Source: Actinomycetota bacterium | Lineage (GTDB): Bacteria; Actinomycetota; Thermoleophilia; Gaiellales; Gaiellaceae | Direction: 5' to 3' | NCBI GenBank assembly: GCA_947445525.1 | Contig: CANFDS010000014.1 | Location: forward strand, 1-32,475 | Length of the DNA stretch: 32,475 nt | Shown here: piece after piece, positions 11,711 through 24,456 of the stretch | How positions within the stretch are numbered: the stretch's first letter is position 1 | How the letters are laid out: every line of letters starts with the position of its first letter | Position numbers and translations under genes: made by a program | The notes under the pieces: generated by a model | Told to the model about the DNA's origin: nothing | What the model saw: the letters and a program-made list of their open reading frames with translations, nothing else | Databases searched by the model: none

Positions 11711-12697
11711 CTAGGCGGCCTCCACCGCGGCCAACTCGGCGCGCAGCGGCGCGACGACCTGCTCGTGCAGCGCCTCGACCTCGCCGAGGAAGCCAGCCGC
11801 CGGGCCGACGGGCGTGAGGACGACGTGGCGGACGCCGGCGTCGACGTACTCGCGGAGGCGCACGCGGCACTCCTCCGGGTCGCCGGCAATCGCGTAGCGC
11901 GCGACGTGGTGCGGCTCGAAGGCGGTGTTGTAGCGCTCGCCGAGGTGAGCGCGCGCCTGCTCGCGGGCGGCGTCGCCGTCGGCGCCGACATGCGCGGGCA
12001 GGACGATCGCGGGCGTGAGCACCGCGGGGTCGCGGCCTGCCTCGGTGGCGTGCCGGCGCACCTCGGCGAAGTCGCGGGCGAAGCGGTCGGCCGAGACCAT
12101 GTAGGCGAGCCAGCCGTCGCCGAGGCGCCCGGCGCGGCGCAGGGCGGCCGGGCTGCGCCCGCCCACCAGCAGCGGCGGCCCGCCGGGCCGCGCCGGCGGC
12201 GGGTCGATCGAGACGCCCTGGAACGGGTAGAAGCGGCCGTCGTGCGCCGCAACCCGTCCCTCGGCGCCCGCCCACCACAGCTCGCGCACGGCGGCGATCG
12301 CCTCGTCGGCGCGGGCGCCGCGCTCGCCGATCGGCACGCCCGCCGCCGCGAAGTCCTGCTCCCCCTCACCGCCGACACCGACGCCGAGCAGCAGCCGGCC
12401 GCCGGAGACGAAGTCGAGCGAGCCGTACGTCTTCGCCACCCACGACGGGTGGCGCAACGGCAGCAGCACCAGCCCAGCGCCGAGCAGCAGGCGCTCGGTG
12501 CGGGCCGCAAAGATCGACAGCGCCACGCTCAGGTCGAGGATCGGGTTGTGGAACGAGAGATGCTCACCGCCCCAGATCGAGTCCCAGCCGAGCTCCTCGG
12601 CGAGGTCGGCGACGGCGCGGAAGAGACCCGGGTCGGGCAGGCCCTCGGTGTGCTGGCCGCTGCCCTGGATGCCGAAGAGCACGGTGTCGTTGCTCAC
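11711..12697 (-). CDS. LLM-class flavin/F420-dependent oxidoreductase
   Basis: 328 residues of the bacterial luciferase-like TIM-barrel family. Typical segments are LAEELGWDSIWGGEHLSFHNP near residues 32-52, LGAGLVLLPLRHPSWVAKTYGSLDFVSGGRLLLGVGVGGEGEQDFAAAGVP at about 72-122, and the C-terminal GDPEECRVRLREYVDAGVRHVVL. The SGGRLLLGVGVG loop and this C-terminus are typical of F420-dependent actinobacterial members, although FMN use cannot be excluded. It would oxidise or monooxygenate a small organic substrate. The GTG start overlaps the GntR gene stop as GTGA, so it is translated with the regulator. Confidence 0.9.
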   Translation of the reverse strand: MSNDTVLFGIQGSGQHTEGLPDPGLFRAVADLAEELGWDSIWGGEHLSFHNPILDLSVALSIFAARTERLLLGAGLVLLPLRHPSWVAKTYGSLDFVSGGRLLLGVGVGGEGEQDFAAAGVPIGERGARADEAIAAVRELWWAGAEGRVAAHDGRFYPFQGVSIDPPPARPGGPPLLVGGRSPAALRRAGRLGDGWLAYMVSADRFARDFAEVRRHATEAGRDPAVLTPAIVLPAHVGADGDAAREQARAHLGERYNTAFEPHHVARYAIAGDPEECRVRLREYVDAGVRHVVLTPVGPAAGFLGEVEALHEQVVAPLRAELAAVEAA

Positions 12698-13440
12698 GGC
12701 AGCGGCCTTCCGGCAGCAGGCACGCTGCGGACCGCCTGCTTCCAGGCGCGGTCGTAGTACGGGCGCAGGAAGTCGAGGTGGTCGCGCATCTCGCCCTCGG
12801 CCTCGTCGGGGCGCCCGCCCGCCACCGCCGCCGAGATCGCCCGGTGCTGCTCGTGAATGCCGGTGTGGAAGCTGCGGCCGAGGCTCGACCGGGTGAGGTG
12901 GGTCTGCAGCACGGTGAACAGCGGCTGCGCCGCGATCAGGATCAGCTGGTTACCGCACGCGCCCAGCAGCGTCGAGTGGAAGTCCTTGTTGATTGCAAAC
13001 TGCTCGCTCGCCGGCAGCTGGAGCATCTCGTCGTCGATCGCCGCCTCGAGCGCTGCGATGTCCTGGTCGCGGCGACGCTGGGCCGCGAGCCGGGCGGCCG
13101 GCACCTCGAGCAGGTCGCGCGCCTCGAGCAGCTCGTCGAGCGAGAGATCGTGTGACTCGGTCATCAGCGCGATGCTCGAGCGGAGGAACTCCGAGATGTG
13201 GTCGACCGTGGGGCGCGTGATGTACGAGCCGCCGCCCGCGCCCTTCGCGGTGGTGATCAGGTTCTGGGCAGCGAGCACGCGCAGCGCCTCGCGCACCGTC
13301 GCCCGGCTGACCCCGAAGTCGCCTGCCAGCATGTTCTCGTTGGGCAGGCGCTCGCCGCGCACGAGGTCGCCCGCGAGGATCAGGGCACGCAGCTGGTCGG
13401 CGACCTGCTCGTAGGCGCGGCGCACCCGCTGCACGGGCAT
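12694..13440 (-). CDS. GntR-family transcription regulator, FadR/FCD subfamily
   Basis: 248 residues. The winged helix is at about 8-78, with YEQVADQLRALILAGDLVRGERLPNE and the recognition region FGVSRATVREALRVLAAQNLI. The FCD ligand domain is at about 95-228, and its metal-binding histidines are visible as His155 (NKDFH), His199 (EQHRAI) and His221 (RDHLDFL). FCD regulators usually sense carboxylic acids and repress neighbouring catabolic genes by binding palindromes with a GT-N3-AC core. Such a palindrome lies in the divergent promoter region at 18714-18724. The gene is inside the leftward operon, coupled to the LLM gene. It is the likely local regulator; effector unknown. Confidence 0.93.
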   Translation of the reverse strand: MPVQRVRRAYEQVADQLRALILAGDLVRGERLPNENMLAGDFGVSRATVREALRVLAAQNLITTAKGAGGGSYITRPTVDHISEFLRSSIALMTESHDLSLDELLEARDLLEVPAARLAAQRRRDQDIAALEAAIDDEMLQLPASEQFAINKDFHSTLLGACGNQLILIAAQPLFTVLQTHLTRSSLGRSFHTGIHEQHRAISAAVAGGRPDEAEGEMRDHLDFLRPYYDRAWKQAVRSVPAAGRPLP

Positions 13441-13546: not shown

Positions 13547-15469
13547 CTAGGACCGTCCGAACTGCTTGTCCGCCGCGGCCGACACCGGGTTGATCTGGCG
13601 CTGCACCGGCTTCGCCCGGTAGTAGTCGGTGAGGCTGGAGAAGCCCTCGCCGCGGGCTCGCGCAGCGCGGATCTCGGCCCGGGCGGCCTCGGTGGCGGCC
13701 AGGTCGATCTCCAGGGAGATATCGTCCTTGAAGACCACGCCGTACGCCTCGCGGGCCAGCACGAGCGTCGAGAAGTCGTCGAGGATGTCCTCGCGCACCA
13801 TGTGCGGGTCGCGCTCCAGCGGGTCGCCGTAGCCGGCCGCGTTGGGCTCGACCAGCTCGACGAAGTCGCCGGCGACGAACGGGATGCCCGTGACCTTCGC
13901 CTCGAGCCACTCCTCGGTCGAGCTGTCGGCGTTCTTGCGGCACGACGCCACCAGGCCGTCCCAGCCGCCGAAGATGCCGCGGGGCGGGTCGAACTGGCGG
14001 TCGCCCTCGCACGAGTACGTGCCGTCCACCATGAAGCGGTTGCGCCGGATCGTGCCGATGCCGCCGCGCCACTTGCCGGGGGCCGCCGCCTCGGGCCGCA
14101 GCTCGTACTGCTCGGTGCGCATCGGGAAGCGCATGTCGAGCTCCTCGATCGGGTTGTTGCGCGTGTTTGCCATCAGGTTGTCGACCGAGTCCATGGCGTC
14201 CTTGCCGTAGCGGCCGCCGTACGAGCCCTCGTTGACCTCCAGGTACAGCCAGTACTCGCCCTGCTTCTGGTCGAAGCCGGAGTACGCGCAGAAGTGGATG
14301 CTGGCCGAGTTGCCTGCCGTGACCTTGGTCGGCATCGCGTCGGCAAGGGCGAGGATGACGTTGTCCACGACCCGCTGGCACTGCGTGAAGCGCGAGAAGC
14401 AGGCGCGCGGGAACTGCGGGTTGAAGATCGAGCCCTTGGGCGCGACCACCTTGACGCAGCGGAAGATGCCGTCGTTCTGCGGCACTTCCTCGGGGAACGT
14501 CACCTCGTCGAGGAAGATGGTGCGCACCGCGTAGTAGGCGGCCACCATCAGCGAGCCCTCGAACGGGACGTTGAAACCCGTCGGCACCTCGGCGTTCGAG
14601 CCGGTCAGGTCGATCGTGATCGAGTCGCCCTCGACGATCACCTTCGTCTCGACGCGGAGCCGCACGCCGCGGTTCTTCGCGTCGTCGTCGAGCCAGCCCG
14701 TGGGCGCCGTGTAGACGCCATCGGGGAGCTTCTCGATCTCGGCGCGCAGCATCCGCTCGGAGTAGTCCATCAGGTCGTAGGCGCAGCTCATCACGACATC
14801 CGGGCCGTACCGCTCGACGAGCTTGAGGAAGCGGTCGCGGCCGAGCTCGCAGGCCGCGCGCATGGCGTTCATGTCGCCGCGGTTCATCGTCTCGGTGCGG
14901 ACGTTGTCGAACAGCATGTGGTCGAGGTCCTCGTTGAGCTTGCCGGCCTGGTACCAGCGCAGGGCCGTCCACATCTTCCCCTCGGCGTACACGTCGAACG
15001 CGTCGGCGTTGACGCCCGGGAACGAGCCGCCGATGTCGAGGAGATGCGCCGTGACGGCAGAGAAGCCGAGCAGCTCGCCCTCCCAGAAGATCGGCACCGC
15101 CACCGCCGCGTCGGGGCTGTGCGACGCCCCCAGGTACGGGTGGTTGTGGACGATGACGTCGCCCTCCTCGAGCTTCCCGTCGAGCCGGGTGAGGAAGCCG
15201 CGGATGTACCAGGGCAGCGAGCCGATGTGCATCGGCGTCGACTCGGACTCGCACAGCTCGCGGCCGACGTGGTCGAAGATCCCCGCGCCGAGGTCCTCGG
15301 ACTCGCGGATGATCGAGCTGTACGACATGCGGTAGAGGACGCTCGCCATCTCGCGGGCGACGGCCTTGAACGCGCCGCTGAGGACGCGCGTGGTGATGGG
15401 GTCGACCTCGACGCGCGGGCGAGTGGGCGGGCCCGGGGAGCGACCGACTTCGTACTCGGCAATCGACAC
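13547..15469 (-). CDS. hyuB: Hydantoinase B / oxoprolinase B-subunit family protein
   Basis: 640 residues. HyuB-family proteins are the large partner of HyuA in ATP-dependent N-methylhydantoinases and 5-oxoprolinases, and they are related to the alpha subunit of acetone and acetophenone carboxylases. Family segments are DPITTRVLSGAFKAVAREMASVLYRMSYSSIIRESEDLGAGIFD at about 23-66, EGDVIVHNHPYLGASHSPDAAVAVPIF, an ITIDLTGSNAEVPTGFNVPFEGS stretch, and NGGAG-like glycine turns toward the end (GGWDG, GYGDP). GTG 15467-15469 has GGAGG seven bases upstream. It follows hyuA by 15 bases. Some 60 residues longer than many bacterial HyuB. Hydrolase or carboxylase activity cannot be decided from sequence. 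Confidence 0.93.
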   Translation of the reverse strand: MSIAEYEVGRSPGPPTRPRVEVDPITTRVLSGAFKAVAREMASVLYRMSYSSIIRESEDLGAGIFDHVGRELCESESTPMHIGSLPWYIRGFLTRLDGKLEEGDVIVHNHPYLGASHSPDAAVAVPIFWEGELLGFSAVTAHLLDIGGSFPGVNADAFDVYAEGKMWTALRWYQAGKLNEDLDHMLFDNVRTETMNRGDMNAMRAACELGRDRFLKLVERYGPDVVMSCAYDLMDYSERMLRAEIEKLPDGVYTAPTGWLDDDAKNRGVRLRVETKVIVEGDSITIDLTGSNAEVPTGFNVPFEGSLMVAAYYAVRTIFLDEVTFPEEVPQNDGIFRCVKVVAPKGSIFNPQFPRACFSRFTQCQRVVDNVILALADAMPTKVTAGNSASIHFCAYSGFDQKQGEYWLYLEVNEGSYGGRYGKDAMDSVDNLMANTRNNPIEELDMRFPMRTEQYELRPEAAAPGKWRGGIGTIRRNRFMVDGTYSCEGDRQFDPPRGIFGGWDGLVASCRKNADSSTEEWLEAKVTGIPFVAGDFVELVEPNAAGYGDPLERDPHMVREDILDDFSTLVLAREAYGVVFKDDISLEIDLAATEAARAEIRAARARGEGFSSLTDYYRAKPVQRQINPVSAAADKQFGRS

Positions 15470-15484: not shown

Positions 15485-17578
15485 CTAGTGGTTGCCGGCG
15501 CTGGCTGCGCCGGTCTCGATGATGAGGTTCCCGAACCGGTCGACCAGGGCGACGAGCCCCGGCGGGATGACCGTGGTCGAGTCGTACTGGTTGACGATCG
15601 CGGGGCCGACGATCCGGTTGCCGGCCTTGAGCCTGGCCCGGTCGTAGTAGCCGGTCGCGACCTGCTGCAGCTTCCCGTCGAGTGGGAACCAGGCGTCGCT
15701 CGTCTTGCGCAGCGCGTGCGCCGGCGACTCGTCGCCGAACGCCACCTCCGACGTCTTCAGCTCCGGCATCAGGCCGATCGCGCGGACGCGGATGTTCGGC
15801 ATCTCGATGATGAAGCTGTCGTCGTGCTGGTGGTACTCGCGCTGGTGCGCCTCGTTGAAGCCGCGGTGGGCCTTGCGCGTCCACTCGGCGTCGATCGGGC
15901 CTGGCTCGAGGTCGACCCGCAGCTCGTAGCCCTGGCCGGCGTAGCGGCACTCGCCGATGCGCTGGATGATGATCCGGTCGGCCGGGACGCCGTCGGCCTC
16001 GAGCTGGGCGCGGGCCTGGTTCTCGAGCTGCGTGAACGTCTCGTAGAGCGACTGCGCGTCGAGCGAGGAGAGGCGCTGGTACACGGTCGAGACGTACTCG
16101 TACGCCGTGTCGGTGGCGAGCAGGCCCATGGCCGCCGTCACGCCGGGGTGCGGCGGGACGAGGATCCAGGGCGTGCCGACCTCCTGCGCGACGAGCGCCG
16201 CGAACAGCGGGCCGGCGCCGCCCTCGGCGACGAGCGCGAACTCGCGCGGGTCGAAGCCCTTGCGCACCGAGTTCTCCTCGATCGCCTGCACCATCGAGTG
16301 CGTGAGGATCTGGATCGAGCCGAGCGACGCCTCCTCGACGGACATGCCGAGCGCCTTCGCCGGGCCGTCCGCGAACGCGCGGCGGGCGGCGTCGACGTCG
16401 AGCTTCATGCCGCCGCCGAGGAAGTCCTCGGGCGAGAGCCAGCCGAGGTTGACCATCGCGTCGGTGGTGGTCGCCTCGGTGCCGCCGCGGCCGTACGCGG
16501 CGGGGCCCGGGACGGCGCCGGCCGAGCGCGGCCCGACGCGGAACATGCCGCCACCGTCGACGTAGGCGATGGAGCCGCCGCCCGCGCCGATCGTGTCGAC
16601 GTCCACCATCGGGATCATCGCGTTGTACGGGCCGACCTTGGTGTCCAGCAGGTGCTTCATGCGCAGGCGGCCGTCCTGCGCGAGGCCGACGTCCGCGGAG
16701 GTGCCGCCAACGTCCAGCGTGATCACGTTGTTGAAGCCGGCCTGCTTGCCGGCCCAGATGCCGCCGACGACACCGGCCACGGGGCCCGACATGAGCATGT
16801 TGACGGGGCGCGCGATCGCGCCCTCCGCCGTGGCGACGCCGGCTGCCGACGTCATCAGGTGGACGCCGGTGCGCACGCCCAGCGCGCGCAGCGAGTCCTC
16901 AAGGCGCCGGATGTAGCGGGCGACCTTCGGGCCGACGAACGCGTTCAGGCCGACGGTCGAGAAGCGCTCGTACTCGCGGTACTGCGGCAGCACCTCCGAG
17001 GAGACCGAGAGGAACGCCTCGGGGAACTCCTCGCGCACGATCTCGGCGACCTTCGCCTCGTGGGCGTTGTTGAGGAACGAGAAGAGGAAGCAGACCGCGA
17101 CCGACTCGACGCCGGCCGCCTTGAGCTTGCGCACCTGCTCGCGGGCCTTGGCCTCGTCGAGCGGCACGAGCACCTTGCCGTCGCCGGTGATCCGCTCGGG
17201 CACCGTCAGGCGGTAGCGGCGGCGCACCACCGGGAACGCCTGCCACGGCAGGTCCTGGTAGTTCGAGAAGTTGAACGGCTTCTTGTGGCGCGCGATGTGG
17301 AGAATGTCGCGGTAGCCCTCGGTCGTGATCATCCCGACCTTGGCGCCGTTGTGCTCGATGACGATGTTGGTGGCGATCGTCGTGCCGTGGAAGACCTGGT
17401 CGAGGTCGCCTGCCGAGATGCCTGCGCGGGCGGCCAGCTCCTGGATGCCCTGGACGGTGGCCACCGACGGGTCGTCGGGGCTCGTCGGGAGCTTGTGGAC
17501 GAGGACGGTGCCCGCCTCGTCGTCGACGTAGATCAGGTCGGTGAACGTCCCTCCGACGTCTACTCCGAGTCGCTTCAC
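15485..17578 (-). CDS. hyuA: Hydantoinase A / oxoprolinase A-subunit family protein
   Basis: 697 residues of the ASKHA ATPase fold. The N-domain opens with the phosphate loop DVGGTFTD at residues 7-14 and carries FHGTTIATNIVIEHNGAKVGMITTEGYRDIL (about 77-107). A second ATP-binding strand, TLDVGGTSADVGL, lies mid-protein, followed by AGGGSIAYVD and GPRSAGAVPGPAAYGRGG, and the C-terminal beta domain reads GPAIVNQYDSTTVIPPG. It phosphorylates the substrate for ring opening or carboxylation by the HyuB partner. GTG 17576-17578 (AGAGG eight bases upstream) places the P-loop correctly. It lies 34 bases after the MDR gene and 15 before hyuB, so these genes probably share a transcript. A truncated relative is at 21982-22329. 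Confidence 0.94.
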   Translation of the reverse strand: MKRLGVDVGGTFTDLIYVDDEAGTVLVHKLPTSPDDPSVATVQGIQELAARAGISAGDLDQVFHGTTIATNIVIEHNGAKVGMITTEGYRDILHIARHKKPFNFSNYQDLPWQAFPVVRRRYRLTVPERITGDGKVLVPLDEAKAREQVRKLKAAGVESVAVCFLFSFLNNAHEAKVAEIVREEFPEAFLSVSSEVLPQYREYERFSTVGLNAFVGPKVARYIRRLEDSLRALGVRTGVHLMTSAAGVATAEGAIARPVNMLMSGPVAGVVGGIWAGKQAGFNNVITLDVGGTSADVGLAQDGRLRMKHLLDTKVGPYNAMIPMVDVDTIGAGGGSIAYVDGGGMFRVGPRSAGAVPGPAAYGRGGTEATTTDAMVNLGWLSPEDFLGGGMKLDVDAARRAFADGPAKALGMSVEEASLGSIQILTHSMVQAIEENSVRKGFDPREFALVAEGGAGPLFAALVAQEVGTPWILVPPHPGVTAAMGLLATDTAYEYVSTVYQRLSSLDAQSLYETFTQLENQARAQLEADGVPADRIIIQRIGECRYAGQGYELRVDLEPGPIDAEWTRKAHRGFNEAHQREYHQHDDSFIIEMPNIRVRAIGLMPELKTSEVAFGDESPAHALRKTSDAWFPLDGKLQQVATGYYDRARLKAGNRIVGPAIVNQYDSTTVIPPGLVALVDRFGNLIIETGAASAGNH

Positions 17579-17612: not shown

Positions 17613-18593
17613 TCAGGGCTTGATGACGACTTTGCCGAAGTGCTCGCGGCTCTCGACGCGCCGGAACGCGTCCGCGATGCCGTCGAGCGAGAACACCGAG
17701 TCGACGAGCGACGTGATCTGGCCGCGGGCGCAGAGCGCGAGGCAGGTCTCGAACTCGTCCTTGTCGTAGACGAAGGAGCCGATGACGCTCTTCTGGCCCC
17801 GGAAGAACGGGATGATGTCGAAGGGCACGACCTCCTCGGCGTGGCCGCCGCAGGTGACGAGCCGGCCGCTGAAGGCAAGGGCCTCGAGGCTCTTCTGGAA
17901 CATGTCGCCGCCGACGTGCTCGAAGACGACGTCAACGCCCCTGCCGCCGGTCGCCTGCTTGACCTCCGCGACGAGATCCTGCGTGCGGTAGTTGATGCCG
18001 ACGTCGAGCCCGAACCCCTTGGCCTTCGCGAGCTTCGCGTCGCCCGAGGAGTTGCCGATGACGTACGCGCCGGAGAGCTTGGCGAGCTGCACGGCGGCCG
18101 AGCCGATGCCGGAGCCCACGGAGTTGATCATCACGGTCTCGCCGATCTTCAGCTTGGCGCGGTTGAAGAGCATGTGGAAGGCGGTGCCGAACGCGACCTG
18201 GAGCGCGGCGGCGTCCTCCCACGAGATGACGTCGGGGATGCGCACGAGCGCCCCGGCCTGGACGGCGACGTACTCGGCCATGCCGCCCGGCGAGTCGATG
18301 CCGAGGAACTTGCCGACGCTGCCGAGCAGGAACGGCGTCACGCGGTCGCCCTTCGCCCAGCCCTCGACGCCAGGGCCGACCTCGTCGACCTCGCCGACGA
18401 ACTCGATGCCCGGGATGTGCGGCAGGGTGATCGGGAAGCGGGAGATGCCCGCGCGGTGGTCGACCTCGACGTGGTTGATCGCAGCGGCTCTGACGCGGAC
18501 GATCACCTCACCGGCGGCAGCGACGGGCTTCGCGACTTCCTCGACCCTGAACACCTCGGGGCCGCCGTGCTCGTGGTACCTGACTGCCTTCAC
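17613..18593 (-). CDS. Zinc-free MDR-family NADPH:quinone-type oxidoreductase
   Basis: 326 residues of the medium-chain dehydrogenase/reductase fold: an N-terminal GroES-like domain (about 25-125, with HIPGIEFVGEVDEVGPGVEGWAKGDRV), a nucleotide-binding domain with NSVGSGIGSAAVQLAK (about 155-170) and GRGVDVVFEHVGGD, and a C-terminal HFGKVVIKP. The structural and catalytic zinc cysteines of alcohol dehydrogenases are missing, which places it with quinone oxidoreductases and enoyl reductases. GTG 18591-18593 is chosen because AGGAGG lies nine bases upstream; a longer open frame lacks this. First gene of the leftward operon. It probably reduces or oxidises an unsaturated or carbonyl intermediate with NADP(H). 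Confidence 0.92.
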   Translation of the reverse strand: MKAVRYHEHGGPEVFRVEEVAKPVAAAGEVIVRVRAAAINHVEVDHRAGISRFPITLPHIPGIEFVGEVDEVGPGVEGWAKGDRVTPFLLGSVGKFLGIDSPGGMAEYVAVQAGALVRIPDVISWEDAAALQVAFGTAFHMLFNRAKLKIGETVMINSVGSGIGSAAVQLAKLSGAYVIGNSSGDAKLAKAKGFGLDVGINYRTQDLVAEVKQATGGRGVDVVFEHVGGDMFQKSLEALAFSGRLVTCGGHAEEVVPFDIIPFFRGQKSVIGSFVYDKDEFETCLALCARGQITSLVDSVFSLDGIADAFRRVESREHFGKVVIKP

Positions 18594-18643
18594 CGTTCCG
18601 GACCTCCTGTGGAATGCGCTCTCGCCGCTGCCGAGCATGCTTT

Positions 18644-18654
18644 GGGTCTGACAT
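18644..18654. promoter_or_regulatory. Candidate GntR operator half-conserved copy, leftward side
   Basis: This site carries GTCTGACAT (18646-18654), identical over nine bases to the palindrome at 18716-18724 and 70 bases away. The GT-N3-AC core is intact. It lies about 50 bases before the MDR gene start, so it could control the leftward operon. CTGACA (18648-18653) also pairs with TGTCAG (18665-18670) across 11 bases. A -10-like TATACC on the minus strand (18677-18682) has no good -35. Confidence 0.45.
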
Positions 18655-18700
18655 CACCGACCGCTGTCAGGCAGAGGGTATAGCTCTCCGGCCTGTGTGG

Positions 18701-18729
18701 TTGACGGAGTCTAATGTCTGACATATAAA
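18701..18729 (+). promoter_or_regulatory. Strong sigma70-type promoter of the rightward operon with operator in spacer
   Basis: TTGACG (18701-18706), a spacer of exactly 17 bases, then TATAAA (18724-18729) make the best housekeeping promoter in the window. The spacer holds a perfect 11-base palindrome, ATGTC-T-GACAT (18714-18724), with the GT-N3-AC core typical of GntR/FCD regulators. Bound repressor would block RNA polymerase. The transcript would start near 18736, about 84 bases before the MaoC gene. Confidence 0.72.
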
Positions 18730-18731
18730 CA

Positions 18732-18748
18732 TGACAGCCGTACTGTCA
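18732..18748. promoter_or_regulatory. Second palindrome at the predicted start of transcription
   Basis: TGACAG (18732-18737) and CTGTCA (18743-18748) are perfect 6-base arms around five bases, just after the -10. It differs from the GT-N3-AC palindrome but shares the TGACA half-site. It may be a second operator or an early hairpin in the transcript. Confidence 0.4.
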
Positions 18749-18819
18749 CGGGAGCGAGCTGTTCGCGGTCAGCTCCACACGCAGGCACTCCTGTCAAAGC
18801 CTAAAAGGAGCCAGACCAG

Positions 18820-19350
18820 ATGAGCGCGAGCGAGTACCGGGCGCCGAAGGAGTGGCGTGGACGCTTCTTCGAGGACTTCGACATCGGCGACATCTTCAAG
18901 AGCCGCCTCGGCCGTACCGTCACCCAGAGCGACAACATCAACTTCACGCTGCTGACGTTGAACACGAACCAGATGCACTTCAACACGCCGTACACCGAGG
19001 GCACGCGCTTCGGCAAGCCGCTCGTCAACTCGGCGTTCACGCTGGCGCTGATCACCGGCATGACTGTCCCGGACACGTCCGAGAACGCCACGGCCAACCT
19101 CTCGTGGACCGACATCAAGCTGCCGAAGCCCGTCTTCGAGGGCGACACGCTGTGGGCGGAGTCCGAGATCACCGACCTGCGCGAGTCGAAGTCGAGCCCC
19201 AACGTCGGCATCGTCTCGATGCGCTGTCGCGGCATCAACCAGCGGCGCGAGGTGGTCATCGAGTTCAAGCGAACCTTCATGGTCTACAAGCGCGACGCCA
19301 CCGAGGTCTCGAACATGTATCCCGGCACCGACACGGACTGGACGGTCTAG
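18820..19350 (+). CDS. MaoC-family hot-dog hydratase (mesaconyl/itaconyl-CoA hydratase-like)
   Basis: 176 residues, one MaoC hot-dog domain. It would add water across an enoyl-CoA double bond. The sequence resembles mesaconyl- or itaconyl-CoA hydratases more than generic (R)-hydratases: RTVTQSDNINFTLLTLNTNQMHFN, FGKPLVNSAFTLALITGMTV and HPVF-like KPVFEGDTLWAESEI. The hydratase motif D-x4-H appears as Asn48-x4-His53, so the catalytic His is kept but Asp is replaced by Asn. AAAAGGAG lies about nine bases before the ATG. First gene of the rightward operon, two bases before the MmgE/PrpD gene. The exact CoA substrate is inferred, not shown. Confidence 0.9.
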   Translation: MSASEYRAPKEWRGRFFEDFDIGDIFKSRLGRTVTQSDNINFTLLTLNTNQMHFNTPYTEGTRFGKPLVNSAFTLALITGMTVPDTSENATANLSWTDIKLPKPVFEGDTLWAESEITDLRESKSSPNVGIVSMRCRGINQRREVVIEFKRTFMVYKRDATEVSNMYPGTDTDWTV

Positions 19351-19352
19351 AG

Positions 19353-20738
19353 ATGGCAACTGCCGCAGAGCGCCTCGCCGCATGGGGCCTCGGCCTCCGC
19401 TACGAGGAGATCCCCCAGCAGGTCGTGGAGGCCGCGAAGCTCCACTTCCTCGACACCATCGGCTGCGGCCTCGCCGCGCACGCCATGGGCATCGCGACCG
19501 AGGGTCGCATCATGGTCGCCGAGCAGGCCGGCACCCCGGACGCCACCGTGATCGGGCTCGACCGGGCGCTGCCCGGCGCCAGCGCGGGCTTCGCCAACGC
19601 GATGCTCTGCCACGGGCTCGACTTCGACGACACGCACCCCGCCTCTGTCGCCCACGTCTCGGCCGTCGTCTCGCCCGTCGCGCTCGCCGCGGCCGAGGTC
19701 GCCGGCAAGGCCGGCCGCGACCTGGTCACCGCCGTCGTGCTGGGCAACGAGACCGTCATCCGCGTCGGGATGGCCGCCCCGAGCAAGTTCCATGCGCGCG
19801 GCTTCCACCCGACGTCGATCTGCGGCATCTTCGGCGGCACGATGGCCACCGGCTACCTCTCCGGCACCGATCAGCAGGCCATGACCAGCGCGCTCGGCAT
19901 CGCCGGCTCGTTCGCGTCCGGCATCTTCGCCTACCTCGACGTCGGGACGGCCACCAAGCCGATGCACCCGGCCTGGGCGGCGCAGGGCTCGTTCTACGCG
20001 AACCGGCTCGGCCAGCTCGGCGCCGAGGGGCCCCCCACCGTGCTCGAAGGCCGCTTCGGCATCTACCACGCCTTCCTCGGCGAGTACATCGACATGGAGC
20101 CGCAGCTCGCCGACCTCGGCAGCCGCTGGGAGACGCCGCGGATCGCATACAAGCCGTACCCGGCGTGCCACTACATCCACGGCTCGCTCGGTGCGACGCG
20201 CAGCCTGCTCGGCCAGGTCGACGTCGCCGACATCGAGGACATCCTGGTGACCCTGCCCGAGGCCGGCGTCGCGCTCGTCACCGAGCCCGAGGTCGAGAAG
20301 CGGGCCCCGCGCACCGACTACGAGGCGAAGTTCAGCCTGCAGTATTCGACGGCGGCGATGCTCGTGCACGGCCACGTCGGCGTACAGACCTACACCGCAG
20401 CCGCGATCGCCGATCCGCAGGTGCTCGCCGTCGCCGCCAAGGTGCGCTACGAGATCAAGGACTACTCGACCTATCCCGGCTCGTTCCCGGGCGGCGTCGT
20501 GATCACGCTCAAGAACGGGCGCAAGCTGCTCGCCGAGCTCGACTACCAGAAGGGCGGCCCGGAGAACCCGCTGTCGGCCGACGAGGTGCTCGAGAAGTGG
20601 CGCGGCAACGCCTCGCTCGCGCTCACCGATGCCGAGGTCACGAGGCTCGAGCAGACGATCCTCGCAATCGAGGAGCACGCCGACCTGCGGGCGGCGTTCG
20701 CGCCCCTCGCGACCGCCAGGGCCGGAGTGGCCGCCTGA
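19353..20738 (+). CDS. MmgE/PrpD-family protein
   Basis: 461 residues of the MmgE/PrpD fold, which includes 2-methylcitrate dehydratase and cis-aconitate decarboxylase. Family markers are DTIGCGLAAH near residues 35-44, CHGLDFDDTHPASVAHVSAVV at about 88-108, a GFHPTSICGIFGG turn, KPMHPAWAAQGS, and YKPYPACHYIHGSL near 265-278. The subfamilies cannot be separated by eye. It would lose or gain water, or decarboxylate a tricarboxylic or branched acid. Its ATG follows the MaoC stop by two bases and its stop overlaps the next ATG by one base (TGATG). The pairing with a C5-type enoyl-CoA hydratase suggests branched C4-C6 acids; inference. Confidence 0.92.
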   Translation: MATAAERLAAWGLGLRYEEIPQQVVEAAKLHFLDTIGCGLAAHAMGIATEGRIMVAEQAGTPDATVIGLDRALPGASAGFANAMLCHGLDFDDTHPASVAHVSAVVSPVALAAAEVAGKAGRDLVTAVVLGNETVIRVGMAAPSKFHARGFHPTSICGIFGGTMATGYLSGTDQQAMTSALGIAGSFASGIFAYLDVGTATKPMHPAWAAQGSFYANRLGQLGAEGPPTVLEGRFGIYHAFLGEYIDMEPQLADLGSRWETPRIAYKPYPACHYIHGSLGATRSLLGQVDVADIEDILVTLPEAGVALVTEPEVEKRAPRTDYEAKFSLQYSTAAMLVHGHVGVQTYTAAAIADPQVLAVAAKVRYEIKDYSTYPGSFPGGVVITLKNGRKLLAELDYQKGGPENPLSADEVLEKWRGNASLALTDAEVTRLEQTILAIEEHADLRAAFAPLATARAGVAA

Positions 20739-21934
20739 TGGGCCTCGACGTCAGCGACCTCACCGAGGAGCAGCGCGACATCGTCCTCGCCGTCCGCGCG
20801 TTCGTGGACAAGGACGTCATCCCGCACGCATCCCGCCTCGAGCATGCCGACGAGTTCCCGACCTCGATGGTCGAGACGATGAAGGGCATGGGCCTGTTCG
20901 GCACCACCATCCCCGAGGAGTACGGCGGCCTCGGGCTCGGCCTCGACACCTACGCGCTGATCTGCGCCGAGATCTCGCGCGGCTGGGTGACGCTGTCGGG
21001 GATCCTCAACGGCTCGTTCATCGCCGGCTACATGATCCGCATGCACGGTACGCAGGAGCAGCGCGACCGCTTCCTGCCGAAGCTGGCGACCGCCGAGATC
21101 CGCTCGTCGTTCTCGATGACCGAGCCGCACGCCGGCTCCGATGTCCAGGCGATCCGCACGACGGCGGTGCGCGACGGCGACGACTTCGTCATCAACGGCC
21201 AGAAGATGTGGGTGACGAACGGCTGGCGCTCGGCGATCTGCATGCTGCTCGTCAAGACCGACCCGACGGCCGTCCCGGCCCACACCGGGATGACCGGCTT
21301 CATCATCGAGAAGGAGCCGGAGACGAACCCGCCCGGCCTGACCATCCCGATGCCGGCGATGAAGAAGCTCGGCTACAAGGGCGTCGAGTCGACCGAGCTG
21401 ATCTTCGACGACTTCCGCGCACCGGCATCCTGGGTGCTCGGCGGCGAGGAGGGCATCGGCCTGGGCTTCAAGTACTTCATGAGCGGCATCGAGGTCGGCC
21501 GCGTCAACGTCGCCGCTCGCGGCGTCGGCATCGCCCAGGCTGCGCTCGAGGAGGCGCTCAAGTACGCGAACGAGCGCGAGGCCTTCGGCAAGAAGATCGG
21601 CAACCACCAGGCGATCCAGCTGATGATCGCGCAGATGGCGACCCGCACCGAGGCTGCCCGGCTGCTCACCGCACAGGCGGCGCGCAAGAAGGCGACCGGC
21701 GAGCGCTCCGATCTCGAGGCCGGGATGGCGAAGTACTTCGCCACCGAGGCCGCCCAGGCCAATGCCACCGACTGCATGCGCATCTTCGGCGGCTACGGCT
21801 ACTCGCTGGAGTTCAACGTCGAGCGGCTGTACCGCGACGCGCCGCTGCTGATGATCGGCGAGGGCTCGAACGAGATCCAGCAGCTGATCATCGCCCGGCG
21901 CCTGCTCGAGCAGCAGCGGGAGGGCAAGGCCTGA
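20738..21934 (+). CDS. Acyl-CoA dehydrogenase, medium-chain/butyryl type
   Basis: 398 residues with the complete acyl-CoA dehydrogenase pattern: PEEYGGLGLGLDTYALICAEISRG, FSMTEPHAGSDVQAIRTTA, INGQKMWVTNG, REAFGKKIGNHQAIQ, MRIFGGYGYSLEFNVERLYRDA, and LLMIGEGSNEIQQLIIAR. The catalytic Glu is Glu375 in IGEGSNE, the short/medium-chain position. It makes a trans-2-enoyl-CoA using FAD and passes electrons to electron-transferring flavoprotein, whose genes are not in the window. Third gene of the rightward operon, overlapping the previous stop. Its product type would suit the MaoC hydratase of the same operon. Confidence 0.95.
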   Translation: MGLDVSDLTEEQRDIVLAVRAFVDKDVIPHASRLEHADEFPTSMVETMKGMGLFGTTIPEEYGGLGLGLDTYALICAEISRGWVTLSGILNGSFIAGYMIRMHGTQEQRDRFLPKLATAEIRSSFSMTEPHAGSDVQAIRTTAVRDGDDFVINGQKMWVTNGWRSAICMLLVKTDPTAVPAHTGMTGFIIEKEPETNPPGLTIPMPAMKKLGYKGVESTELIFDDFRAPASWVLGGEEGIGLGFKYFMSGIEVGRVNVAARGVGIAQAALEEALKYANEREAFGKKIGNHQAIQLMIAQMATRTEAARLLTAQAARKKATGERSDLEAGMAKYFATEAAQANATDCMRIFGGYGYSLEFNVERLYRDAPLLMIGEGSNEIQQLIIARRLLEQQREGKA

Positions 21935-21981: not shown

Positions 21982-22329
21982 GTGAGCGATCGGATCTCGG
22001 CGGACGTCGGTGGCATGTTCACGGACGTCGTGGTGACCGACGCGGCGGGGACGCTGACCGCCGGCAAGCGCCTGACGACGCCCGGGCTCGGCCTGCTCCA
22101 CCGCGACAGCGTCCAGATCGACATGCAGCGGACGCCGTTCCTGGTGCGGTCGCTGCCCCTCGTCACCGGCTCGGCGAGGGCGGGCCGCCAGCGCGGCGGC
22201 CTCGTGCCAGTGGCCGCGGCCCGCGCCGCCTGCGGCGCGGCCAGCACCGGAGAGATCGGAAACGACACACTCGCGATCGACGCGGGCGCAACTGCAGCGT
22301 TGCGCGCCGGTCGCGGCGACGAACAGTAG
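21982..22329 (+). pseudogene. Truncated remnant of a second hyuA
   Basis: A 115-residue frame with a proper ribosome-binding site (GGAGG, seven bases before GTG 21982). The first 35 residues read like the HyuA N-terminus: the phosphate loop is present as DVGGMFTD, with Met replacing the Thr of DVGGTFTD, followed by a strand, a turn and KRLTTPG, where intact HyuA has a similar KLPTSPDDPS. From about residue 37 the similarity stops and the rest is Arg/Ala-rich with no family I recognise. A working HyuA needs about 690 residues, so ATPase activity is excluded. It sits between two acyl-CoA dehydrogenase genes. A short expressed peptide cannot be ruled out. Confidence 0.65.
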
Positions 22330-22339
22330 GGAGAGAGAC

Positions 22340-23503
22340 ATGGACTTCGGAACCGACCCCGAGCTCGAGGAGATCCGCACCGGTGTGCGCGAACTCTGCT
22401 CCAATTTCCCCGGCGAGTACTGGCGCGCGCTCGAGCCGTCCACGTACCCCTCGGAGTTCGTCGACACGCTGACGAAGGACGGCTGGCTGGCCGCGCTGAT
22501 CCCCGAGGAGTACGGCGGCGCGGGCCTCACGATGACGGCGGCGAGCGTGATCATGGAAGAGATCAACGCCACCGGCTGTAACTCCGGAGCCTGCCACGCC
22601 CAGATGTACACGATGGGCACGATCCTCCGCCACGGCTCCGACGAGCAGAAGGCGCACTACCTGCCGAAGATCGCCTCGGGTGAGCTGCGCCTGCAGGCCT
22701 TCGGCGTGACCGAGCCGACCGCCGGCTCCGACACGACGTCGATCACGACCACGGCCGAGCGCACCGCCGACGGCTGGATCGTGCGAGGCCAGAAGATCTG
22801 GACGTCACGGGCGGAGCACTCCGACCTGATGCTCCTGCTCGCCCGCACCACCCCCGCCGACCAGGTGGCGAAGAAATCCGACGGCATCTCGACGTTCCTC
22901 GTCGACATGAAGGCCGCCCTCGCCGCGGGCACGATGACCATCCGCCCGATCAAGACCCTGATGAACCACGCGACGACGGAGATCTTCCTCGACGGCGTGG
23001 AGCTGCCGGCCGACGCCCTCGTCGGCGTCGAGGGGCAGGGCTTCAAGGCGATCCTCGGCGGCATGAACGCCGAGCGCATCCTGATCGCGGCGGAGTGCAT
23101 CGGCGACTCCCGCTGGTTCATCGAGAAGGCGGCCGCGTACTCGAACGAGCGCGTCGTGTTCGGCCGCCAGATCGGCGCCAACCAGGGCGTGCAGTTCCCG
23201 ATCGCGCGCGCGTACGCGGCCACCGAAGCCGCCAACCTGATGCGCTACAAGGCGGCGTGGCTGTACGAGCAGAACCAGCCGCACGGCGCCGAGGCGAACA
23301 TGGCGAAGTTCCTCGCCAGCGAGGCGTCGTGGGCGGCGGCCAACGCCTGCCTCGACACGCACGGCGGCTTCGGCTTCGCCGAGGAGTACGACATCGAGCG
23401 GAAGTTCCGCGAGACACGGCTGTACTCGGTGGCGCCGGTGTCGAACAACCTCGTCCTCGCCTTCCTCGGCCAGAACGTGCTCGGGATGCCGCGCTCGTAC
23501 TGA
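22340..23503 (+). CDS. Acyl-CoA dehydrogenase, isovaleryl-type catalytic position
   Basis: 387 residues. Typical parts are PEEYGGAGLTMTAASVIMEEI, FGVTEPTAGSDTTSITTTAER, VRGQKIWTSRAEHSD, VVFGRQIGANQGVQFPIARAYA and DTHGGFGFAEEYDIERKFRE. At the medium-chain Glu position the C-terminus reads VAPVSNN, without Glu. On the preceding helix, GGMNAERILIAAE puts Glu245 at the isovaleryl/long-chain enzyme position. It may therefore prefer branched or bulky acyl-CoA. GGGAGAG lies just before the ATG, 10 bases after the hyuA remnant. Last gene of the rightward operon. Confidence 0.94.
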   Translation: MDFGTDPELEEIRTGVRELCSNFPGEYWRALEPSTYPSEFVDTLTKDGWLAALIPEEYGGAGLTMTAASVIMEEINATGCNSGACHAQMYTMGTILRHGSDEQKAHYLPKIASGELRLQAFGVTEPTAGSDTTSITTTAERTADGWIVRGQKIWTSRAEHSDLMLLLARTTPADQVAKKSDGISTFLVDMKAALAAGTMTIRPIKTLMNHATTEIFLDGVELPADALVGVEGQGFKAILGGMNAERILIAAECIGDSRWFIEKAAAYSNERVVFGRQIGANQGVQFPIARAYAATEAANLMRYKAAWLYEQNQPHGAEANMAKFLASEASWAAANACLDTHGGFGFAEEYDIERKFRETRLYSVAPVSNNLVLAFLGQNVLGMPRSY

Positions 23504-23546: not shown

Positions 23547-23553
23547 CTGCCCC

Positions 23554-23805
23554 ATGGCCGCGTTCCACCTCCGCGACATCCCCGACGACACCTATGCGCA
23601 GCTACGCGAGCGCGCCGCGCGCAACGGTCGCTCGATCAACGCCGAGGTGCTGTGGATCGTCGACAGGGAGCTCGGCAGGCCGTCGGGCGAGGAGCTGCTC
23701 CAGCGGCTGAGGCGGCTCCGTGCCGAGTGGACGCTCCCGCCTGACGCACCCCGGCCCGAAGATCTGATCAGGGAGGATCGCGACCGTGTCCCCGACTGGC
23801 TCTAA
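23554..23805 (+). CDS. vapB: VapB/FitA-type ribbon-helix-helix antitoxin
   Basis: 83 residues. The N-terminal ribbon-helix-helix domain (about 1-42) reads MAAFHLRDIPDDTYAQLRER followed by AARNGRSINAEVLWIVDREL, the Arc/FitA pattern. The acidic C-terminal tail (PEDLIREDRDRVPDWL) is the toxin-binding part. Start ATG 23554 gives the complete domain. Its stop TAA (23803-23805) is exactly the base triplet duplicated by the inserted element downstream, so the antitoxin was left whole. The original toxin start lies inside its 3' end, with a strong ribosome-binding site. It may now be an orphan antitoxin. Confidence 0.87.
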   Translation: MAAFHLRDIPDDTYAQLRERAARNGRSINAEVLWIVDRELGRPSGEELLQRLRRLRAEWTLPPDAPRPEDLIREDRDRVPDWL

Positions 23806-24456
23806 GAGCTCGTTTCAGAAGAAGCGTTGAACCTCGGGGCGCTCGGAGCGAGCGGCTGGGTCGACCGGCGCGCAGGACAGGCTGGCCGCCTGGACAAGAG
23901 CCGGGCGGCCCAGCCGCGAAGCCCTGGAGACCGCTCGCAGAGCGGTCTCCAGGTCGCCGCAGGCCCAGAGCACGGACGCACCGCGGCCGGGCTCTGGGCC
24001 GAAGGACGATCCGAGCGATTCGCGGACGACGCTAATTCTGATTCGAGCTCTAAGGTCGTCATCGACGCGAGCGCCCTCGTGCGCGGGGTCGTCGTCGGCG
24101 AGCTACAAGCAGTCGAGTGGGTTGAGCGGATCGCGCTGCGGGACGTGCAAGCCATCGCGCCCGACCACGTGTACGCCGAGGTTGCCAACTCGTTGCGCGG
24201 GTACCTGCGCAGCCGCTGGATCGAAGCGGAAGCGGCCGCCGAGCGCATCTCCGCCGTGCTCGATCTCCCGCTGACGACCTTCCCGTCGCGGCTGCTCGCA
24301 CGCCAGGCGCTCGGCCTCACGCAGGCGCATGGCGTGAGCGCATACGACGGCCTCTACCTCGCCCTGGCGCTCGGCTTCGGCGCCCGCCTCATCACGGCCG
24401 ACCGGCGGCTGGCAGCTGCCGCCGGGGACGCCGCCGTGCTACTACCACCCGTGTAG
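23786..24456 (+). pseudogene. vapC: VapC PIN-domain toxin gene split by a 245-base insertion
   Basis: GTG 23786-23788, with GGGAGG nine bases upstream, starts MSPTGSK and then enters the inserted element, meeting TGA at 23828-23830. From 24052 the gene continues KVVIDASALV and runs to 24456. Deleting the element plus one TAA copy (248 bases, not a multiple of three) joins the two parts in frame to a 140-residue VapC. It would have all four PIN acidic residues: VVIDAS, HVYAEV, SAYDGL and ITADRR. A frame open through the element from TTG 23827 could give the toxin with about 75 foreign residues in front, but it has only a weak ribosome-binding site. The toxin is probably silent or altered. Confidence 0.85.
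23806..24050. mobile_element. 245-base MITE-like element inside vapC
   Basis: The ends are imperfect 24-base terminal inverted repeats, 19 of 24 identical, sharing the blocks GAGCTCG, TCAGAA and AGCGT in the same order. TAA flanks it on both sides (23803-23805 and 24051-24053). Inside are three stems: 23880-23890 with 23904-23915, a perfect 14-base stem 23923-23936 with 23940-23953 (3-base loop), and a perfect 10-base stem 23962-23971 with 23991-24000. There is no transposase. GAG ends with a TNA target fit IS5-family (IS1031-like) elements, so mobilisation by such a transposase elsewhere is inferred. Confidence 0.82.

Follow-up and report, generated by a model that had tools for sequence, protein, structure and literature searches.

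Three characterized proteins of the GntR family, AlkR, LhgR and AnsR, provide the closest described counterparts of the operator reported here. AlkR binds ATTGTCAGACAAT over the -10 element of alkB2 and represses this gene (PMC12042122), LhgR binds TTGTCTGACAA (PMC8206213) and AnsR binds ACCTGTCTGACAGCT (PMC9145765), in each case as shown by footprint/gel shift. The core TGTCNGACA is common to these three sites and to the palindrome described below as operator A. For the FadR subfamily the consensus TNGTNNNACNA, with outer T...A, was published, to which even the AnsR site conforms only in part (PMC9145765).

We analyzed a stretch of 32,475 nucleotides from an actinobacterium of the Gaiellaceae (assembly GCA_947445525.1, contig CANFDS010000014.1), referred to as the window. 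An earlier note on this DNA had proposed that a palindrome within the best promoter of the window is recognized by an FCD-type GntR protein encoded nearby, and that this would place the whole island under control of this protein. The comparisons presented here make it highly probable that a GntR/FCD dimer sits over the -10 element of the promoter of the MaoC-MmgE-acyl-CoA dehydrogenase operon and thereby represses this operon, and that it ancestrally also repressed the hydantoinase-like operon that carries gntR.

Organization of the divergent operons

The two divergent operons are separated by an intergenic gap of 225 bp. The rightward operon (plus strand) begins with a MaoC-like dehydratase (18820-19350; Pfam PF01575 and PF19315), preceded by the ribosome-binding site AAGGAG (18805-18810), and continues with an MmgE/PrpD family protein (19353-20738; PF03972 and PF19305) and a first acyl-CoA dehydrogenase (20738-21934; PF00441, PF02771 and PF02770). 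About 400 bp 3' of the latter, on the same strand, a second acyl-CoA dehydrogenase is encoded (22340-23503), which scores below the cut-off of the NCBIfam acyl-CoA dehydrogenase models and is a neighbour kept in relatives. Between both dehydrogenase genes lies a short reading frame (21982-22329) with no Pfam match; its start DVGGMFTDVVVTD resembles the N-terminus DVGGTFTDLIYVD of hydantoinase A, and it is possibly a remnant of hyuA. Just downstream of the rightward operon (23550-24456, approximate start) a FitA-like ribbon-helix-helix protein is followed by a PIN-domain protein, likely a toxin-antitoxin pair.

The leftward operon (minus strand) starts with a PIG3-like zinc-type oxidoreductase (17613-18593; PF00107 and PF08240), which has a GTG start after AGGAGG, followed by proteins similar to the hydantoinase/oxoprolinase subunits A (15485-17578; PF01968) and B (13547-15469; PF02538). 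The gene gntR (12694-13440) is the last or a late gene of this operon, and an LLM-class oxidoreductase (11711-12697) comes after it in leftward order. As gntR is located 106 bp after hyuB on the same strand, it is probably transcribed from the leftward promoter.

In the NCBIfam comparison the MaoC protein is RipB/Ich-like with a score below the cut-off, and relatives encode HpcH/HpaI lyase and CoA-transferase III genes; taken together this hints at itaconate-like chemistry and proves nothing. A literature search for the gene combination of the island returned no match.

The rightward promoter and operator A

The rightward promoter is predicted at 18701-18729, which reads TTGACG GAGTCTAATGTCTGACA TATAAA, with the -35 element at 18701-18706, a spacer of 17 bases and the -10 element at 18724-18729. 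In a scan of both strands against TTGACA/TATAAT this is the only sigma-70-like match of the window with 10 of 12 positions, the next best reaching 9 of 12, which bears out its earlier description as the best promoter in the window. The spacing lies within the 16-18 bases of sigma-70/sigma-A promoters and the elements are conserved, with A or C instead of T as final -10 base; since this base is A in the window, a stricter promoter scan of the window missed the promoter.

Operator A (ATGTCTGACAT, 18714-18724) forms a perfect 5+1+5 palindrome and has the GT-N3-AC core given for the FadR subfamily (Suvorova et al., 2015, PMC4494728), while its outer bases are A...T and not the T...A of the published consensus. 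It had been described as an 11-base palindrome filling the end of the spacer. Its perfection and position hold, but palindrome and -10 element share one base, the final T of the former being the initial T of the latter, so that the palindrome is not wholly contained in the spacer.

On its own, the palindrome is unremarkable: at least one such palindrome was found in 24.6% of shuffles of the 225-bp intergenic region (P about 0.25, not significant), and 93 of this 5+1+5 type occur across the window. However, the exact sequence ATGTCNGACAT has only two copies in the 2.43-Mb assembly, and of these only operator A is centred on A/T, as expected of the site of a local regulator. A genome-wide regulon was sought in the same assembly with one-mismatch sites, of which there are 32. 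No more than four of them are centred on A/T, and as the three besides operator A deviate within the core, no further target is claimed. This rarity, together with the conservation across relatives, raises the palindrome above chance.

Conservation of the mirrored promoters in relatives

With MaoC as query, 78 loci were obtained, and the seven nearest ones that share the divergent layout (L001-L005, L008 and L012; MaoC 76-98% identical) were taken as footprint set; the promoter blocks were aligned across eight loci. In the seven loci the intergenic regions vary in length and sequence and are largely unalignable, but two blocks are near invariant: block A, TTGAC-N..-AATGTCTGACATATAAM, and block B on the opposite strand, TTGACA-N16-18 ending in GTCAGACATAAA. 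Operator A is exact in L001-L004, L008 and L012 and has one mismatch in L005. The TTGAC of its -35 element is invariant in all eight aligned loci, the -10 element reads TATAAA or TATAAC in L001-L005, TACAAC in L008 and is less clear in L012, and TTGAC and TATAAM are spaced by 17-18 bases in the window and L001-L005. Blocks A and B are mirror images, with the same operator placed against the -10 element of each promoter. The blocks are 41 to 91 bp apart, but each operator is fixed in its place on its own promoter; the same behaviour is described for paired FadR-subfamily sites that act independently (Suvorova et al., 2015, PMC4494728). Judged by this footprint, the conserved unit is a pair of predicted divergent promoters with the same operator at each -10 element, and operator A is a genuine, conserved docking site for a regulator.

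These findings bear on the explanation that the palindrome arose by chance in an AT-richer promoter, with no regulator behind it. The shuffling frequency of about 25% and the number of palindromes in the window agree with it, but it would leave unexplained the near-perfect conservation in seven diverged loci, the mirrored second copy and the association of the site with GntR described below. Promoter function alone does not account for the block either, as its GTCTGAC belongs to neither the -35 nor the -10 element. We regard a chance origin as extremely improbable.

In the window itself block B is degraded. Operator B (18644-18654) reads GGGTCTGACAT, two mismatches away from the ATGTCTGACAT present in the sister locus L001, having lost its left half. 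The leftward -35 element (18665-18670, minus strand) reads CTGACA instead of the TTGACA of relatives, its first base being lost, and the -10 element (18641-18646, minus strand) reads CCCAAA, with two bases lost relative to the CATAAA of L001, L002, L003, L005, L006, L008 and L012. The GTCTGAC of operator B and the TGTCA of the leftward -35 element are invariant in all eight aligned loci. As block B is intact in L001, whose MaoC is 98% identical, the leftward operon may be less tightly controlled in the window, or there may be assembly errors at 18641-18670. The regulation of the whole island, as proposed earlier, fits the conserved operator on each divergent promoter of the relatives, but with the leftward operator degraded here equal control of both operons is less certain.

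Other repeats in this region were considered and set aside. TGACAG-N5-CTGTCA (18732-18748), a candidate TetR-like operator, is not conserved in L001; a terminator-like match at 18750-18730 was dropped, as it overlaps this unconserved repeat. CTGACA-N11-TGTCAG (18648-18670), a second TetR-like candidate, is accounted for by a half-site of operator B and the leftward -35 element.

The GntR/FCD regulator and its association with the operator

The gene at 12694-13440, 5 kb from the palindrome, was correctly recognized in the earlier note as encoding an FCD-type GntR protein: the N-terminal winged helix-turn-helix domain PF00392 (67.6 bits, cut-off 27) and the C-terminal FCD domain PF07729 (80.9 bits, cut-off 24.3) both score above cut-off. 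According to the curated NCBIfam cut-offs it is none of LldR, GlcC, PdhR or NanR, the best match being the NanR model with 111 bits against a cut-off of 260. A D/N-H-H-H pattern is typical of metal-dependent carboxylate-sensing FCD proteins. In an alignment with LldR (2di3) this pattern is formed by N151, H155, H199 and H221, which we take to be the FCD metal site, predicted from the residue pattern; the three histidines are present in 51-52 of 52 aligned relatives.

More than 30 loci have a GntR orthologue of 40-98% identity next to MaoC, among them loci of Micromonospora, Dactylosporangium, Actinomadura, Nonomuraea, Streptosporangium, Nocardioides and a gammaproteobacterial Ectothiorhodospiraceae MAG. 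In these distant genera a match to AAAYRTCWGAYRTTT is usually found close upstream of MaoC, between or near GntR and MaoC. When up to one mismatch was allowed, a site was found in the 330 bp preceding MaoC in 21 of 36 loci with GntR and in 3 of the 29 others (Fisher p = 8e-5; random windows 1.3%). Loci with GntR also reach higher best scores for AAAYRTCWGAYRTTT (Mann-Whitney p = 3e-8 against the other loci; a permuted control motif scored low); both p-values are optimistic as the loci share ancestry and are not phylogenetically independent, although the association spans families. Hence the site is kept in front of orthologous genes along with the gene of the regulator, as expected of a FadR-subfamily operator.

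Individual loci deviate. The three with a site and no adjacent GntR (L001, L005 and L045) have a homologue elsewhere in the genome, with 98, 44 and 43% identity, respectively. In L005 both operators are kept (9804 and 9895) with no gntR in the 18 kb covered. L064 has GntR and no good site. L009, by contrast, agrees with the association, as it has both operons with neither a GntR in the genome nor a site. In L102/G036, where GntR is 62% identical, the contig ends short of the promoter.

In L112 and L114 the recognition helix reads GVGR instead of GVSR and the sites are of the CATCWGATG type; the variant AAACATCWGATGTTT lies beside TTGAC (L112, 8369; L114, 8834), and co-drift of regulator and operator is possible there. 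The operator variant thus appears to track the recognition helix in part, as a lead and not as a rule, because L115 combines a GVSR-type helix with an ATC-type site. L117 (6500-9800) encodes an FCD GntR with 42% identity between luciferase-like monooxygenase and CoA-transferase-like genes, with ATTTGTCTGACATTA (6761) and ATATGTCAGACAAAC (9570) located at the promoters of these genes; this suggests that the operator core is common to a wider clade.

Alternatively, the operator could be real and be bound by another factor (TetR, LysR or a different GntR), the neighbouring GntR regulating something else. Sites without an adjacent gntR, as in L005, would fit this, as would the roughly 10-30 GntR-like candidates per genome and the LysR protein CrgA, reported on the P. 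aeruginosa alkB2 promoter that is also bound by AlkR. But it is the window-type GntR that co-occurs with the site in unrelated genera, recognition helix and site co-vary in part, and three characterized GntR-family proteins use the core, so that we consider another factor unlikely. That the GntR protein of the window recognizes the palindrome, as proposed earlier, is instead supported by the footprint across relatives, by this co-occurrence and by the published GntR-family footprints on the same core.

Proposed mechanism and implications

A dimer of the GntR/FCD protein, the predicted binder of operators A and B, would occupy operator A over the end of the spacer and the -10 element and, given this overlap, block RNA polymerase at the promoter of the MaoC operon. 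On the mirrored leftward promoter operator B would ancestrally have allowed repression of the oxidoreductase/hydantoinase-like operon by the same protein and, as gntR is part of this operon, autorepression. Release of the repressor would be brought about by a small acidic pathway metabolite that occupies the FCD metal site; with the FCD histidines conserved, an acidic pathway intermediate is probably the inducer. The sign of the regulation could also be different, with GntR binding the operator as activator or dual regulator, since FadR-type proteins can activate some promoters (PMC12042122). However, in relatives the operator overlaps the -10 element at both promoters, a position that normally blocks polymerase, and AlkR represses from the equivalent position (PMC12042122), which renders an activating role very unlikely.

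More broadly, it is evenly balanced in our judgement whether catabolic islands of the MaoC/MmgE/CoA-transferase/hydantoinase-like type across Actinobacteria are under the control of a so far undescribed FCD regulator clade that acts via AAAYRTCWGAYRTTT on mirrored divergent promoters, with a core that drifts from GTCNGAC towards ATCNGAT in step with changes of the recognition helix. If true, this drift offers a natural series from which the DNA specificity of FCD proteins could be read. The mechanism itself is an ordinary, textbook kind of gene switch. What is gained is a supported regulon prediction for an uncharacterized actinobacterial catabolic island, with operator and partner site named, and with operator, regulator and probable acidic effector a handle for finding the substrate of the island.

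Comparison with known systems

FadR-subfamily divergons with double sites have one site close to each of the two operons within a single intergenic region, as in the relatives of the window (Suvorova et al., 2015, PMC4494728). Unlike in these divergons, the sites described here lie on mirrored -10 elements, and the part of that survey considered here contains no regulon composed of MaoC, MmgE and HyuAB. AnsR from Corynebacterium glutamicum, a member of the FadR subfamily, is likewise an actinobacterial repressor encoded in the operon that it represses, but its site is located downstream of the transcription start, acting as roadblock, and it controls an asparagine operon (PMC9145765). The site of LhgR, the l-2-hydroxyglutarate regulator, shares an identical nine-base core with operator A and is autoregulatory, and the effector of LhgR is a small dicarboxylic hydroxy acid, similar to the one predicted here; pathway and outer bases are different (PMC8206213). 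AlkR from Pseudomonas aeruginosa SJTD-1 (GntR/VanR, FCD) resembles the GntR protein of the window as an FCD-type regulator using the core TGTCNGACA, with a site covering the -10 element of its target and a target in acyl-CoA metabolism (PMC12042122). In contrast, it has alkB2 as single target and not a divergent pair, the outer bases of its site are ATT...AAT and its effector is long-chain acyl-CoA (PMC12042122). Unlike in the AlkR case, the GntR protein of the window keeps the three FCD histidines, which makes a carboxylate the more likely effector.
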